A stretch of DNA of 64,000 bases from Dehalobacter sp. (GTDB lineage: Bacteria; Bacillota; Desulfitobacteriia; Desulfitobacteriales; Syntrophobotulaceae), in contig JAMPIU010000206.1 in NCBI GenBank assembly GCA_023667845.1, positions 1-64,000 on the forward strand, read 5' to 3'. Positions 43,251 through 49,139 of this stretch are shown here, in pieces; position 1 is the first letter of the stretch; each line of letters begins with the position of its first letter. The notes beneath the pieces are model-generated. The model worked only from the letters and a program-made list of their open reading frames with translations. It searched no databases and was not told where the DNA came from. The position numbers and the translations under genes are program-made.

Positions 43251-45488
43251 CTATATTACTATATCATATTCCTTAACTTTTTTCTTCTTTAACACCCGCA
43301 TTGCATTCAGGATCGCAATCACAGCCACACCTACATCGGCAAATACAGCTTCCCACATTGTCGCAACGCCCATCGCTCCAAGGATGAGGACGCCTATCTT
43401 TATTCCGAGCGCAAAACCAATATTCTGCCAGACAATTCCTTTCGTTTTCCGGGCAATCCGGATTGCCTCGAGCAGTTTGGCAGGTTCGTCCGTCATCAGG
43501 ACAATATCCGCGGCCTCAATCGCTGCATCCGACCCAAGTCCGCCCATGGCAACCCCGATATCAGCCCTGGCCAGGACCGGTGCATCATTGACCCCATCTC
43601 CGACAAAAACGAGTTTACTGCCGTTTTCCTTTTGTTCCTCCAGCGTTTCCAGAACAGCAACCTTTTGATCGGGAAGCAATTCAGCGTAAACTTGGTCAAA
43701 CCCCAACTGCTGTCCGATCTGTTCACTGATCGCCTTCGTGTCTCCGGTCAGCATAACCAATTTCTTAACTCCTGCCTGTCTCAATCCCCGCAACGCCTCA
43801 TGAACATCTTTTTTGACTCTGTCCGTAATCAGGATATAGCCGGCATATTGACGCTCAATCGCGATATAGGCAGTCGTTCCAGCCTCGGGTATTTGCGTCA
43901 GGGAGATTCCTTCCTCAGTCAGGAGCCTAGCGCTGCCGGCAATGACTTCTTTTCCCTGATATACTGTTTTTACGCCATAGCCCGGTATTTCTTGATACTG
44001 GTGGATATCTTTCTGATCAATGCCCTTCGTATTCAGTTTTTTCGTATCGTCTTCGGTGTATCGTTTCAAAATCGAAGCCGCAATGGGATGACCTGAAAAA
44101 TATTCAGCCGCAGCAGCATATTCCAGCAAAGTATCTTCATCAAACCCCTGAGCAGCTTGTATTCCGGTAACTTCAAACACACCTTCGGTTAGCGTGCCGG
44201 TCTTATCAAAAACAACCGTACGCACTTGATTCAGGCCTTCCAGGTAGTTGCTTCCCTTGATCAGGATGCCGTTTCGGGAAGCGCCTCCGATACCCCCAAA
44301 AAAGCTTAACGGGATGGAGATCACCAGTGCGCAGGGACATGACACCACGAGGAAGACCAAAGCCCGGTTCAGCCATTCGCTGAACGTGGCCCCTTCAATA
44401 AACAGCGGGGGTAAAAAAGCTAAAAGTGCAGCTCCGAGCACAATAATTGGTGTATAGACACGCGCAAATGTTGTCATGAAATTTTCTGTCTTAGCTTTTT
44501 TCGAGGCGGCCTTTTCCACCAAATCCAGAACCCGTGCAACCGTGCTCTGCTCATAAACCTTCGTAACTTTCACGGTCAAAACCCCGGTCTTATTGATAAA
44601 ACCAGCCAGAATACTGCTGCCGGCTTCGACCTCCCTCGGGATAAATTCTCCGGTGAGCGCCGAGGTATCCAAAACAGACCTGCCCGCAAGCACTGTGCCA
44701 TCGAGGGGAACTTTCTCTCCCGGCTTGATCAGAATCATCTGGCCTTCCCTGACTTCCTCCGGTGGTACTTTGCTTATGGAATCGTCCTTCATTAAATTCG
44801 CATAGTCCGGACGAATATCCATCAGTTCACTGATCGAGCGGCGGGAACGGTTTACAGCACTGTCCTGGAAAAATTCACCGACCCGGTAGAACAACATCAC
44901 AGCTACAGCCTCGGGATATTCCTGAATAGCCAGCGCCCCGACTGTAGCAATAAACATCAGAAAGTTTTCATCAAGAAACTTGCCGCGGCTAATATTTTGG
45001 AGTGCCGCCCAGACAATCTTGCCGCCAATCAACAAATAGCTGACCAGAAACAGTACGATTTCAATGGCAGGTTTCAATTTTAGCAGAAACGCAGCCGTAA
45101 AAATGACTGCTCCAATGACAAAGCAAACCAGCTCGGCATTCACTTTCTGTTCTTTCTGTTCTTTCTGTTGTTTCTGTTCTTTCTGTTCTCTTCGTTTTTC
45201 TTGTTCCGTGGTTTTCTCTTCTTTACTGGCTGCACCAATATCTTTGGACCGGATCCCAGTAATTCTTATCCCGGCTTCAATCCGGGAAGCAATTTTTTCA
45301 ATTTTGAGGGCGATATCTGTGATCTTTTCAGAATCGTTTACCTCGAGATAGAGTTTACTGCCGGCAAAATCAATATTTGCAGTTTTTATACCATCCAGCT
45401 TTTTTACTTCTTGTTCGATTTTAGCCGAGCAGTTTGCACAGCCAAGACCGGCAAGCAGGATGACAGCTTCCTGACTTCTTGTATCCAT
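43251..45488 (-). CDS. cadA: Heavy-metal P1B-type ATPase (Cd/Zn/Pb class)
   Basis: 745-aa efflux ATPase. An N-terminal HMA domain has GLGCANC (Cys17, Cys20). A Gln/Lys/Glu-rich linker follows (about 100-125). The membrane part has the CPCALVISIPLSFFGG ion-binding motif, the phosphorylation site DKTGTLTEG, the TGDTKAISEQIGQQLG nucleotide-binding motif and GDGVNDAPVLARADIG. The CPC motif and partner CadC point to Zn2+/Cd2+/Pb2+. It sits 23 bp downstream of cadC and shares its metal-controlled promoter. Confidence 0.92.
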   Translation of the reverse strand: MDTRSQEAVILLAGLGCANCSAKIEQEVKKLDGIKTANIDFAGSKLYLEVNDSEKITDIALKIEKIASRIEAGIRITGIRSKDIGAASKEEKTTEQEKRREQKEQKQQKEQKEQKVNAELVCFVIGAVIFTAAFLLKLKPAIEIVLFLVSYLLIGGKIVWAALQNISRGKFLDENFLMFIATVGALAIQEYPEAVAVMLFYRVGEFFQDSAVNRSRRSISELMDIRPDYANLMKDDSISKVPPEEVREGQMILIKPGEKVPLDGTVLAGRSVLDTSALTGEFIPREVEAGSSILAGFINKTGVLTVKVTKVYEQSTVARVLDLVEKAASKKAKTENFMTTFARVYTPIIVLGAALLAFLPPLFIEGATFSEWLNRALVFLVVSCPCALVISIPLSFFGGIGGASRNGILIKGSNYLEGLNQVRTVVFDKTGTLTEGVFEVTGIQAAQGFDEDTLLEYAAAAEYFSGHPIAASILKRYTEDDTKKLNTKGIDQKDIHQYQEIPGYGVKTVYQGKEVIAGSARLLTEEGISLTQIPEAGTTAYIAIERQYAGYILITDRVKKDVHEALRGLRQAGVKKLVMLTGDTKAISEQIGQQLGFDQVYAELLPDQKVAVLETLEEQKENGSKLVFVGDGVNDAPVLARADIGVAMGGLGSDAAIEAADIVLMTDEPAKLLEAIRIARKTKGIVWQNIGFALGIKIGVLILGAMGVATMWEAVFADVGVAVIAILNAMRVLKKKKVKEYDIVI

Positions 45489-45511
45489 ATCTTTTTTCTC
45501 CTCGCTAATTC

Positions 45512-45877
45512 TTATCCTTCTTTGACATGGAGCATTCCCTGGCCGAAAATGCCTTTGATATGCTCGTCATCCAGCGCATAGAATACGATCTTTCCTTCTT
45601 TTCTGTTCTTTACCAGCCTGCATTGCTTAAGAATCCGCAGCTGATGTGAAATTGCCGACTGGGTCATATTTAGCAGAAAGGCTAGGTCGCAGACACACAT
45701 TTCCGCTTCGGAAAGCGCCCAGAGTATTTTTATCCTTGTCGTATCACCAAATACTTTAAACAACTCGGCAAGATCGTACAGATTTTCTTCCTGCGGCATC
45801 GCTCCTTTGACCTTACTGACAATTTCTTCATGAATAACCAGACAGTCACACCGCAAATTCTCCGCTTTTCCCTCCAT
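45512..45877 (-). CDS. cadC: ArsR/SmtB-family metal-responsive repressor (CadC-like)
   Basis: 121-aa winged-helix repressor of the cadCA operon. It has the N-terminal CDC site (ENLRCDCLVIHEE), ELFKVFGDTTRIKILWAL, the ELCVC-type metal motif EMCVCDLAFLLN, the recognition helix TQSAISHQLRILK, and DDEHIKGIFGQG. The start is ATG 45877; the frame runs open to 45982, but that stretch holds the promoter and operator, so the longer version is not coding. In family members metal binding releases the operator. Confidence 0.93.
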   Translation of the reverse strand: MEGKAENLRCDCLVIHEEIVSKVKGAMPQEENLYDLAELFKVFGDTTRIKILWALSEAEMCVCDLAFLLNMTQSAISHQLRILKQCRLVKNRKEGKIVFYALDDEHIKGIFGQGMLHVKEG

Positions 45878-45925
45878 CAAAACAAACCGCTCCTTTGTAT
45901 TTGCTCTATCAATTGAATACTCGAT

Positions 45926-45947
45926 TGAATACTTGAATAAGTATTCA
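45926..45947 (-). promoter_or_regulatory. cadC: CadC operator
   Basis: Perfect 9-bp inverted repeat TGAATACTT-gaat-AAGTATTCA, with further TTGAATAC half-sites at 45913-45920 and 45925-45932. It covers the predicted transcription start, 50 bp upstream of the cadC start codon. This is the typical position and sequence style for an ArsR/SmtB repressor. Confidence 0.75.
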
Positions 45948-45953
45948 TATATT

Positions 45954-45982
45954 ATATTATTACGTATTTCTTTTATGGTCAA
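45954..45982 (-). promoter_or_regulatory. cadC: Promoter of cadCA
   Basis: TTGACC (45977-45982), 17-bp spacer, TAATAT (45954-45959) on the minus strand. It is directly followed by the operator. Confidence 0.6.
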
Positions 45983-46101: not shown

Positions 46102-46674
46102 CTACGCATAGCCTGTAAATATTGATTTAAGTTTTTTAAGGCTATTTGTTAGGGTAAAATAAAGATGGACGGATATGAATGAGACCATCATTAATGCCGC
46201 CAGATAATGCAGCCAGCGTACAGGGTTTAATCCTCCTGCCGCTTTGACCGCTCTCTGCAGGGGCTTGAAGTAGAGGGTCATCCCGGTAATCATCTGGACC
46301 GGGATTAATCCTGCGAGCGAGGTAATCAATATTTTCTGACCTGGATTGTATTTGGGATACTTCGTCTTTTTTTCGGATAGGAAGAATTCGTATTTTAAGA
46401 ATTCGGGTATTGCCTTTAAGGTCTTGCGGTTCGGAATGATTTCTTTATAGTTTTTGTCTTTAATCCCGTAGCAAATCCGTGCCAGGTACGAATTTAACAG
46501 TAAAAACTGGGCGACGGCATGTGTTTTCCGGGCTGAATCCATCCGTTTGAACCCGAAAGCGCGCGATGGGCTGTGAATGTAAAGCCCGCTAAAAATTAAA
46601 GCCAGTACGGCCGGCGCATAGACCCAGTGAAGCAATCTGACTGTTCCTGAATGACGTTGCTTTTTCCAATTCAT
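46102..46674 (-). CDS. Di-haem cytochrome b-like subunit of the [NiFe] hydrogenase
   Basis: 190-aa four-helix membrane cytochrome of the Ni/Fe-hydrogenase b-type family. Helices lie at about 13-33, 52-70, 115-135 and 148-180. Candidate haem His residues are in VRLLHWVYAPAV, ARKTHAVAQFLL, NPVRWLHYLAALMM and FISVHLYFTL. It would pass electrons from H2 oxidation to the quinone pool. Its ATG overlaps the large-subunit stop by 4 bp (ATGA). Confidence 0.85.
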   Translation of the reverse strand: MNWKKQRHSGTVRLLHWVYAPAVLALIFSGLYIHSPSRAFGFKRMDSARKTHAVAQFLLLNSYLARICYGIKDKNYKEIIPNRKTLKAIPEFLKYEFFLSEKKTKYPKYNPGQKILITSLAGLIPVQMITGMTLYFKPLQRAVKAAGGLNPVRWLHYLAALMMVSFISVHLYFTLTNSLKKLKSIFTGYA

Positions 46675-48074
46675 ATCATGATCTCCCTAACGGGTGTTCC
46701 CGTGGTTATTAAATGTGTCGAACAAGAGGAACAAATGTCAAATGCCCTGATCACCCGGCCGATTTCAATGGGCTGTTTTTCATCCGCAATCGGAATTCCG
46801 ATCAGCGCTTCCTCAACCGGTCCTCTGCAATTCTGATTATCCCGAGGCGAAAAATTCCAGGCACTTGGTGTAATTATTTGGTATTGGGCAATCCTGCCGT
46901 TTTCAATTCGCAGCCAGTGTCCGAGCGGACCGCGCATTGCTCCGGTAATGCCAATGCCCTCGGCATTTTTCGGTACTTCAAAGGGTAAGAATATGCGTCC
47001 TTCCGGCTCAAGCTCATCGAGCCAGGATTCCATCAAAGCCCCTACTTTTTGGGCCTCGAGCGTCCTGGCGATCATCCGGTCCATCGTCGATATACCCTTT
47101 CGGTAATCTCCTTTGATCCAGAGCCTGGCCAGCGGGCCTCCTTCCAGCGGCACACCGAAATAGCGGGGCGCCTTTATCCAGGAATAAGCGTTTTCTTTTT
47201 CCCGTTCGGAAACAGTCCGTCCGTCAGAGGGGTTCCGCGGTCCGGGCTCTGCTGCATACCAGGACCTTGCCGTATGTTCTTTAATCAGCGACAGATCAAG
47301 CTTCTGGATTTGGCCGTTCACCACTGCTCCACCTGGAAAATATCTCTCCCGGTCTTGCTCCGTGCATGGAAACAGTCCGTATTCAAGCATATTCGGGGCT
47401 CTTTGGCCGAGTTCAAAGTAATCACTGTAAGCGTCTGCAAGGATGTATACATCGGCTACCATCTGATTCTGGATGAACCGATTTACTTTTTGGAGCTTCG
47501 ACCGGAAATTCATGACCACATCGGCAGAAGGCGGAACTGTAGCCCCTCCAGCCAATATCCCATGAGGGAACGGGGCTTTTCCGCCTAGCAGCGCCACCAT
47601 TTCGTGAGCCAGGCGGCTTATTTCCAGTGCTAAATACATATTCTGCACCATCGTATCGTTTTTCTTTTTTTCTAGCCGCTTATCTTTTGTATAACCTGGA
47701 ACAAAGGGGGCTCTCTCTGGCAGGATCAAATAATCCACCAGGGAAAACAAATACAGATGACGGATATGATTCTGGAGAATATCTGCCCCGGTAATCAGGT
47801 TTCGCAAAATGTTGGCATTACGGGGCGGCTTGATCCCGGCAGCGTCTTCCAAGGCGTAGGAGGCAGCTGCTCCATGCAGCGATGAGCAGATCCCGCAGAT
47901 TCTTTCCGTAAGGTATGCGGCGTCCCGCGGGTCTTTTCCCTGCAGTATCAGTTCAAACCCCCTGAAAAAGATCCCGCTGCAGCGGGCATCTACCACTTTT
48001 TTGTTTTCAACTGTGACCTCTACGGCGCAGGAGTTGTTAGCCCTTGTAAGTGGCCCTATGACAATCTTTTTCAT
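46671..48074 (-). CDS. [NiFe] hydrogenase large (catalytic) subunit
   Basis: 467-aa subunit holding the NiFe(CN)2CO site. The N-terminal L1 motif is RICGICSSLHG (Cys60, Cys63). The C-terminal L2 motif is FDICSSCSTH (Cys448, Cys451, His454), with Ile where most have Pro after the Asp. A 13-residue tail (LITTGTPVREIMI) follows His454 and would be cut by a maturation protease; no protease or hyp genes are in the window. Lies between the small subunit and the cytochrome b. Confidence 0.92.
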   Translation of the reverse strand: MKKIVIGPLTRANNSCAVEVTVENKKVVDARCSGIFFRGFELILQGKDPRDAAYLTERICGICSSLHGAAASYALEDAAGIKPPRNANILRNLITGADILQNHIRHLYLFSLVDYLILPERAPFVPGYTKDKRLEKKKNDTMVQNMYLALEISRLAHEMVALLGGKAPFPHGILAGGATVPPSADVVMNFRSKLQKVNRFIQNQMVADVYILADAYSDYFELGQRAPNMLEYGLFPCTEQDRERYFPGGAVVNGQIQKLDLSLIKEHTARSWYAAEPGPRNPSDGRTVSEREKENAYSWIKAPRYFGVPLEGGPLARLWIKGDYRKGISTMDRMIARTLEAQKVGALMESWLDELEPEGRIFLPFEVPKNAEGIGITGAMRGPLGHWLRIENGRIAQYQIITPSAWNFSPRDNQNCRGPVEEALIGIPIADEKQPIEIGRVIRAFDICSSCSTHLITTGTPVREIMI

Positions 48075-48131: not shown

Positions 48132-49139
48132 TTACTTATGACCTTTTTTAAGCCGGGGCCTGATTTTTAGCTTACTCCCGCCTGGAAGATCCTTTTTCAG
48201 TGTTTCCGCAAGTCTGCCTGTCAGGATGCTTCCCATCAGATGAGCGCCAATACCAAGCGCGGTCACAACCCCTGTCCATAGGCCCACCCTATTTGCCGTT
48301 ACTTTGATCCCAGGAAGCTTTACATCCGGTAAGTGTTCAAAGAATGGAACGTTCCCATCGGAAAACTCCGGGCTGGCACAGCCGATACAAGGGGTATTGG
48401 CTTTTACCGGCCAGCTTAGATGCTCTCCGTTCCACTGGCGGACAGGGCAATCTGCATAGGTGACCGGCCCTTTGCAGCCGATCTTATACATACACCAGGG
48501 TTCTCCCGGCTTAGCGGCAAAGATGCTGTTGTCAAAATAATCCCGCCGCTGGCAAAGGTTATGGATGGTTTCTCCATAGAAAAGTTTGGGCCGGCTATAA
48601 TCATCAAGTGCTGGCTCGCCGTACTGAATTAAATGGTTTAAAGTGCCCATCATCCATTCGGGGTTGATTGGGCATCCAGGCACATTGATAACTTTTCTGT
48701 CCAGAACAGCCTGTAACGATACGCATTTAGAAGGGTTCGGAGCCGCAGCATAGATTCCTCCGAACGCTGCACAGGTACCGGCAGCAACCACATAACGGGC
48801 TTCAGCACCCAGTTCCCGCACTGCCTGCAAAGCCGTCCAAGCCTTGCCGTTCCGATAACCGATCACAGAATACAGGCCATTGGACCTCGTCGGGATGCTC
48901 CCTTCAACTACCAGGATATATGCTGCTTTATGATTTTTCTGGAGATCATCAAGAACGTTGATGGCATCACTGCCTTCGGACGCGCCCAAAAGATAATCAA
49001 AACGAAGCTCTGCAATGCTGCTGATCAACTCCTGGTAGCCCGGATCCTTGGCATTAAGAAGGGAAAGCATGTCGCCGGCACAGGTATTCGTCCCGAGCCA
49101 GATAATGAGAGGTTTTGCTGGAACATCTTTATTCACCAT
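48132..49139 (-). CDS. [NiFe] hydrogenase small (Fe-S) subunit with CxGD proximal-cluster motif
   Basis: 335-aa electron-transfer subunit. The proximal-cluster motif, normally CxxC, is Cys20-Ala-Gly-Asp23 (LGTNTCAGD). The other cluster ligands are present: GTCAAFGG, VPGCPINP, the His/Cys distal set (ETIHNLCQRRDYF; CMYKIGCKGP) and ADCPVRQWN with PCIGCASPEF. There is no twin-arginine signal at the N-terminus. A single hydrophobic segment near the C-terminus (WTGVVTALGIGAHLMGSIL) would anchor it. Asp ligation of this cluster is known from the actinobacterial-type (group 1h) enzymes. Confidence 0.92.
   Translation of the reverse strand: MVNKDVPAKPLIIWLGTNTCAGDMLSLLNAKDPGYQELISSIAELRFDYLLGASEGSDAINVLDDLQKNHKAAYILVVEGSIPTRSNGLYSVIGYRNGKAWTALQAVRELGAEARYVVAAGTCAAFGGIYAAAPNPSKCVSLQAVLDRKVINVPGCPINPEWMMGTLNHLIQYGEPALDDYSRPKLFYGETIHNLCQRRDYFDNSIFAAKPGEPWCMYKIGCKGPVTYADCPVRQWNGEHLSWPVKANTPCIGCASPEFSDGNVPFFEHLPDVKLPGIKVTANRVGLWTGVVTALGIGAHLMGSILTGRLAETLKKDLPGGSKLKIRPRLKKGHK

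Follow-up and report, generated by a model that had tools for sequence, protein, structure and literature searches.

A group-1 [NiFe] hydrogenase of Dehalobacter without a Tat signal, with a retained membrane anchor and cytochrome b partner and a putative cytoplasmic orientation

A window of 64,000 nucleotides (the whole stretch of DNA analysed) from Dehalobacter sp. was found to encode a group-1 [NiFe] hydrogenase whose small subunit has lost its Tat signal and kept its C-terminal membrane anchor and its cytochrome b, and the enzyme is best read as an inward-facing H2:menaquinone oxidoreductase, with a probability of about 0.6. The notable point is that the export signal is missing with the respiratory partner retained. 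Taken together with the replacement of residues that are normally essential, the loss of the signal makes it probable that the enzyme acts at the inner side of the membrane and with an altered chemistry.

Results

Structural organization of the hydrogenase operon

The operon lies on the minus strand in the order small subunit, large subunit and b-type cytochrome. The small subunit (48132..49139, minus strand; 335 amino acids, ATG start, without a signal peptide), defined by ORF call, profile matches, alignments and an upstream scan, occupies exactly the interval given to it by an earlier note on this DNA, scores 250 bits against the hydrogenase small subunit profile TIGR00391 (cut-off 179.5) and contains the Pfam domains NiFe_hyd_SSU_C and Oxidored_q6. 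Ligand positions 1 and 2 of the proximal cluster fall in Cys20-Ala-Gly-Asp23 (codons 49071..49082, minus strand), in the context IIWLGTNTC20-A-G-D23-MLS, where related enzymes have CxxC ('ctgc' opposite 'cagd'); this CAGD, already read by the earlier note, was recovered in the ORF translation and in alignments with HofK (CDGD), HyaA (CTCC) and HybO (CTGC). Asp23, aligned with the Asp of the HofK motif, is a putative fourth ligand of the proximal cluster, and the remaining ligands (C123, C156, H193, C196, C216, C222, C251 and C254) are the same in all 23 aligned rows. A CAGD motif and the absence of a Tat signal were observed together in all eight gene-carrying genomes of the family, the window's own genome counted, indicating neither chance nor a sequencing error. 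The genome encodes two further group-1 small subunits, which have CTGC or CTCC and an intact Tat signal. The C-terminal membrane segment claimed by the earlier note was likewise found, as a hydrophobic helix at residues 282-306 (48222..48296, minus strand) followed by a basic tail; the helix is predicted by an AlphaFold2 model of low overall confidence (mean pLDDT 62) and is also hydrophobic. The basic tail is shortened in L010 (~2496; also L038), where it ends in TGRLRKH and the remainder is readable in another frame.

The large subunit (46671..48074, minus strand; 467 amino acids) contains both CxxC pairs, the C-terminal His and a C-terminal extension, as judged from profiles and alignments. 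Its gene end is overlapped by that of the cytochrome subunit (46102..46674, minus strand; 190 amino acids; Ni_hydr_CYTB by ORF call and Pfam), which is the cytochrome b partner that the earlier note had named. One maturation protease and one hypD were detected in the genome, both outside the 64-kb window, indicating that the hydrogenase operon relies on genes elsewhere. The hydrogenase genes are followed immediately, in the same orientation, by genes for an ArsR-type regulator and a P-ATPase of the cadmium/zinc type (43251-45982), and four further loci of the genus share this arrangement. An open frame at positions 18-518, right at the window's edge, is highly repetitive (SLTLRSHLTWR units) and is probably the antisense reading of a gene rich in repeats.

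Loss of the Tat signal

Upstream of the small-subunit ATG the frame is open for only 21 codons and contains no RR, and an RRx[FL]-type motif was absent from all three frames of the 300 nt upstream, which agrees with the missing twin-arginine signal of the earlier note and rules out a missed upstream start or a frame-split signal. All 10 exported relatives scanned with the same script showed the Tat motif where it was expected. The window's genome also encodes TatC and two paralogues with a Tat signal (SRRDFLRF and SRRGFLKL), so the Tat pathway has not been lost.

The window belongs to a Tat-less branch with a helix, which comprises 23 small-subunit rows (support 93) and 20 large-subunit rows (support 95) from Dehalobacter, Desulforudis, Desulfoscipio geothermicus and several MAGs, and which retains the helix and, contig permitting, mostly the cytochrome b gene. 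This gene is adjacent in 19 branch members, the window counted, with His 16, 52 and 170 of the cytochrome conserved in 19 of 19 and His 156 in 16 of 19. No Tat motif was detected in any frame within 240 nt upstream in 19 of the 21 branch loci scanned, with L072 (contig end, odd frame) and L068 left out, and the two matches that did appear have no signal-like core. Peak hydrophobicity upstream has a median of -0.1 in the 19 branch loci long enough to score (of 20 listed) versus 1.38 in 46 Tat-bearing relatives. Worn-down leaders are visible in L064 (MLSRKDFSRLVKKLL, with SRKDF for SRRDF) and L063 (MISRNKFSRVF, with SRNKF), where relatives have MLSRRDFLKLVV. What sets the window's branch apart is the loss of the Tat signal.

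A second branch without Tat signals, comprising 26 rows, is soluble and has neither the helix nor the cytochrome gene, and its leaders (MQKEEF..LC and MRREDFERLC) resemble eroded Tat signals. A single Tat loss common to both branches was not rejected by the AU test (p = 0.107), and parsimony on the small-subunit tree counted 4 changes of Tat state across the 105 rows scored, among them the references. A [NiFe] enzyme of Syntrophaceticus schinkii without a signal peptide is called very likely cytoplasmic in PMC5113046, and the gene described there is presumably a member of the second branch. No paper on a cytoplasm-facing [NiFe] small subunit that lacks a Tat signal and is linked to cytochrome b turned up in a literature search.

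Proximal cluster residues across the lineage

The second proximal position was compared in 89 distinct rows of the lineage, after 80 named loci from other genomes had been added: 51 have Asp, 18 Asn, 19 DSGDN (with the first Cys changed as well), 1 Gly and none Cys. Asp or Asn is therefore the rule in this anaerobic Bacillota lineage (88 of 89, a figure that counts the DSGDN rows as Asp/Asn, the exact alignment of DSGDN being uncertain). Among 22 loci from two other families of the order, 20 exhibit CTGD and 2 CTGN, all 22 with a Tat motif, and the closest Cys-bearing relative is Carboxydothermus (L098, CTGC). The earlier note had regarded Asp at this site as a mark of group 1h and as unexpected in a strict anaerobe, and had proposed placement in a normal group with Cys in all neighbours as one outcome that would speak against it; the neighbours display the opposite, with Asp or Asn in nearly all of them and a Tat signal in many, and neither of the two claims holds. 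The distribution indicates that Asp is an old trait of an anaerobic Bacillota lineage, in which the Asp ligand itself appears to be ordinary.

Natural changes at the same position, Cys-to-Asp in Geobacter metalloreducens and Cys-to-Asn in Nostoc, are entered in Table 1 of a 2014 survey (PMC4070099). For Huc, the fourth coordinating residues and the density maps are reported to indicate three [3Fe-4S] clusters (PMC10017518), and by analogy the Asn rows of the lineage may have a [3Fe-4S] proximal cluster. In the 19 soluble relatives with DSGDN instead of CxGD, both CxxC cysteines of the proximal cluster are apparently replaced, so that two Cys plus Asp residues remain, an arrangement undescribed in the literature cited here.

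Active-site replacements and selection

The missing proton-gate Glu and the displaced His of the large subunit, both absent from the earlier note, are the most interesting features of the enzyme. The proton-relaying glutamate, which is E28 of HyaB (its alignment position was computed), is replaced by Asn13 in the window (48036..48038, minus strand; alignment of the large-subunit rows). Among 93 lineage rows this position is occupied by His (31), Asn (30), Ser (23), Leu (3), Met (1), Gln (1) or a gap (4), with Glu in none of the 89 readable rows, and HofG of group 1h has Val. The glutamate is described as relaying protons from a Ni-bound Cys (PMC11212049), and no description of its absence was found in a literature search of titles and abstracts. 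The His229-Pro-Asn231 of HyaB is represented by Phe169-Pro-His171 in the alignment (47562..47570, minus strand). In 19 of 88 rows, the window's among them, the position of His229, which PMC3940037 describes as fully conserved in [NiFe]-hydrogenases, is taken by Phe (15), Asn (3) or Tyr (1), and all 19 have a His two residues on; the site lies near the proximal cluster and is Phe in the window's branch.

All 88 rows have Cys in the columns that correspond to HyaB 79, 576 and 579, and the motif listing shows the first Cys of the L1 pair. Against relatives of the genus and family, dN/dS ranges from 0.05 to 0.12 for the small subunit and from 0.08 to 0.14 for the large subunit (one of the five large-subunit comparisons having no dS), which argues for a working enzyme under purifying selection and rules out a pseudogene. 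L041 and L058 exhibit a C-terminal FYVCSSCSAQ in the large subunit instead of FDxCxxCxxH, with the conserved Asp and the processing-site His changed, in this one genome.

Phylogenetic position and closest known systems

In quick maximum-likelihood trees the lineage forms one clade (SH-aLRT 99 for both subunits), placed next to the [NiFeSe]/group 1a enzymes and apart from the group 1h references, a deep placement that is tentative. The [NiFeSe]/group 1a enzymes are the nearest reference in the large-subunit tree, which contains a single [NiFeSe] reference and in which the lineage is sister to 5jsu plus Carboxydothermus (SH-aLRT 86). L068 (broken frame) and L123 (N-terminus missing) were removed before the small-subunit alignment and 9 duplicate rows before its tree; 12 listed rows (mostly duplicates, one fragment, one truncated start) and rows of <=380 amino acids were removed before the large-subunit tree, and 15 further Desulfosporosinus-type rows were thinned out for the AU tests. 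The [NiFeSe]-related model NCBIfam NF033181 was matched at 511 bits, below its cut-off of 600. The periplasmic [NiFeSe]/group 1a hydrogenases (Desulfovibrio 5jsu; D. baculatum 1cc1) are the best or near-best solved-structure matches for both subunits, but the [NiFeSe] enzymes have CTGC, TRIEGH, Cys at the fourth medial position and selenocysteine (by PDB names), where the window has CAGD, TRANNS, Pro and Cys.

The Tat-exported three-subunit uptake hydrogenases of Desulfosporosinus, Desulfitobacterium and Tepidanaerobacter share with the window the small-large-cytochrome b order, Asp/Asn, the missing proton-gate Glu and the C-terminal helix, whereas they have an intact Tat signal, less basic cytochrome loops and His229. 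The soluble two-subunit enzymes of Pelotomaculum, Heliobacterium, Sporomusa and Syntrophaceticus, from the same lineage, resemble the window in having no Tat signal, only its recognisable remnants, and no proton-gate Glu, and differ from it in the absence of the helix and of a cytochrome b gene and in having mostly DSGDN for CxGD. The extra proximal Cys of group 1d (CTCC in HyaA and HoxK) is absent from the window's CAGD.

Discussion

The earlier note had left two options, a cytoplasm-facing respiratory hydrogenase or an oxygen-tolerant type; the first gained support from the missing Tat signal with retained helix and cytochrome b, and the second is unsupported, as nothing in the analysis points to oxygen tolerance. 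It is barely credible that the enzyme belongs to the oxygen-insensitive, actinobacterial-type group 1h, even though HofKG of Cupriavidus necator shares CxGD and the lack of both a Tat signal and a proton-gate Glu, and even though an AU test with the lineage and 1h as one clade did not reject the grouping (p = 0.213) and so still allows it. The 1h motifs were looked for in the window's large subunit and were absent, TERICGICSSLH and FDICSSCSTH standing where 1h enzymes have TSRICGICGDNH and SFDPCLPCGVH; the bit scores to HofK and HofG (117 and 139) are far below those to [NiFeSe] enzymes (193 and 384 for the small and large subunit); HofKG is distant in the trees; and the domain content differs, since group 1h is without a C-terminal membrane helix (PMC5364354) and HofKG has no adjacent cytochrome b gene, whereas the window has both. 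A decaying or sensory copy without respiratory function would fit the replacement of normally essential residues (E28, His229 and one proximal Cys), but it is very unlikely in view of the low dN/dS, the retention of the other cluster ligands and of the checked NiFe cysteines, and a cytochrome b kept alongside across families.

Continued export of an outward-facing enzyme, by Tat passage with a signal-bearing partner or by an unrecognised route, is a serious though rather improbable alternative. The 20 residues after the helix carry +4.6 in the branch versus +4.0 in exported relatives, and under the positive-inside rule such a basic tail would place the C-terminus inside, so that a spanning helix would put the catalytic part outside; the inside loops of the cytochrome are also more basic, and its predicted topology is therefore not inverted but as in exported relatives, both points standing against an inward-facing enzyme. 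Published annotations (PMC3910700 and two other papers) present all three Dehalobacter Hup enzymes as periplasmic, and the orthologue in Dehalobacter restrictus PER-K23, at ~1.07 of 2.94 Mb, is probably among the uptake hydrogenases Dehre_1061-1063 of PMC3910700; a search under the locus tags Dehre_1061-1063, Dehre_0551 and Dehre_2405 found no paper. Against export, the branch loci share no neighbour, as judged by conservation, beyond the large subunit, cytochrome b and sometimes a maturation protease, the large subunit has no leader, and the eroded traces of a signal that the enzyme once had point to weakened selection for export. The summed net charge of the cytochrome b loops that face outwards in exported enzymes ranges from 5 to 11 in the branch, as against 0 to 5 for 38 relatives and -2 to 2 for 5 classical references (8 duplicates dropped; rows within branches are related and hence are not independent tests). 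Such unusually basic loops fit a changed arrangement at that face, and the charges do not decide the orientation.

For the inward-facing oxidoreductase, the following history and mechanism are proposed. The enzyme belongs to a Bacillota lineage next to [NiFeSe]/group 1a with a putative proximal cluster of three Cys plus Asp/Asn and no proton-gate Glu, and in the Dehalobacter branch the Tat signal was lost, with the C-terminal anchor and cytochrome b kept. From this combination we infer that the folded small-large heterodimer remains cytoplasmic and attaches to the membrane from the inner side. Electrons would flow from H2 through NiFe, the proximal [4Fe-4S] cluster (3 Cys + Asp), the medial [3Fe-4S] cluster, the distal [4Fe-4S] cluster and heme b to menaquinone, and protons would be led around the missing Glu by another route. 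Oxidising H2 on the inner side would be electroneutral, and H2 produced within the cell could be recovered in this way. The fuller proposal, that an inward, cytochrome-b-linked [NiFe] H2:menaquinone oxidoreductase arose by Tat erosion and, without the Glu, with Asp/Asn for a proximal Cys and with His replaced by Phe plus a new His, represents a natural alternative wiring for protons and electrons, is advanced tentatively, at somewhat under even odds.

For Dehalobacter, which lives on H2 and organohalides, the energy balance depends on the side of the membrane on which H2 is split. If one Hup enzyme faces inwards, the models of proton-motive force and H2 recycling in Dehalobacter would change. 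The lineage also offers a natural test of how protons move in a [NiFe] enzyme without the Glu considered an essential gate and, its members being anaerobes, of what the Asp at the proximal cluster is for.
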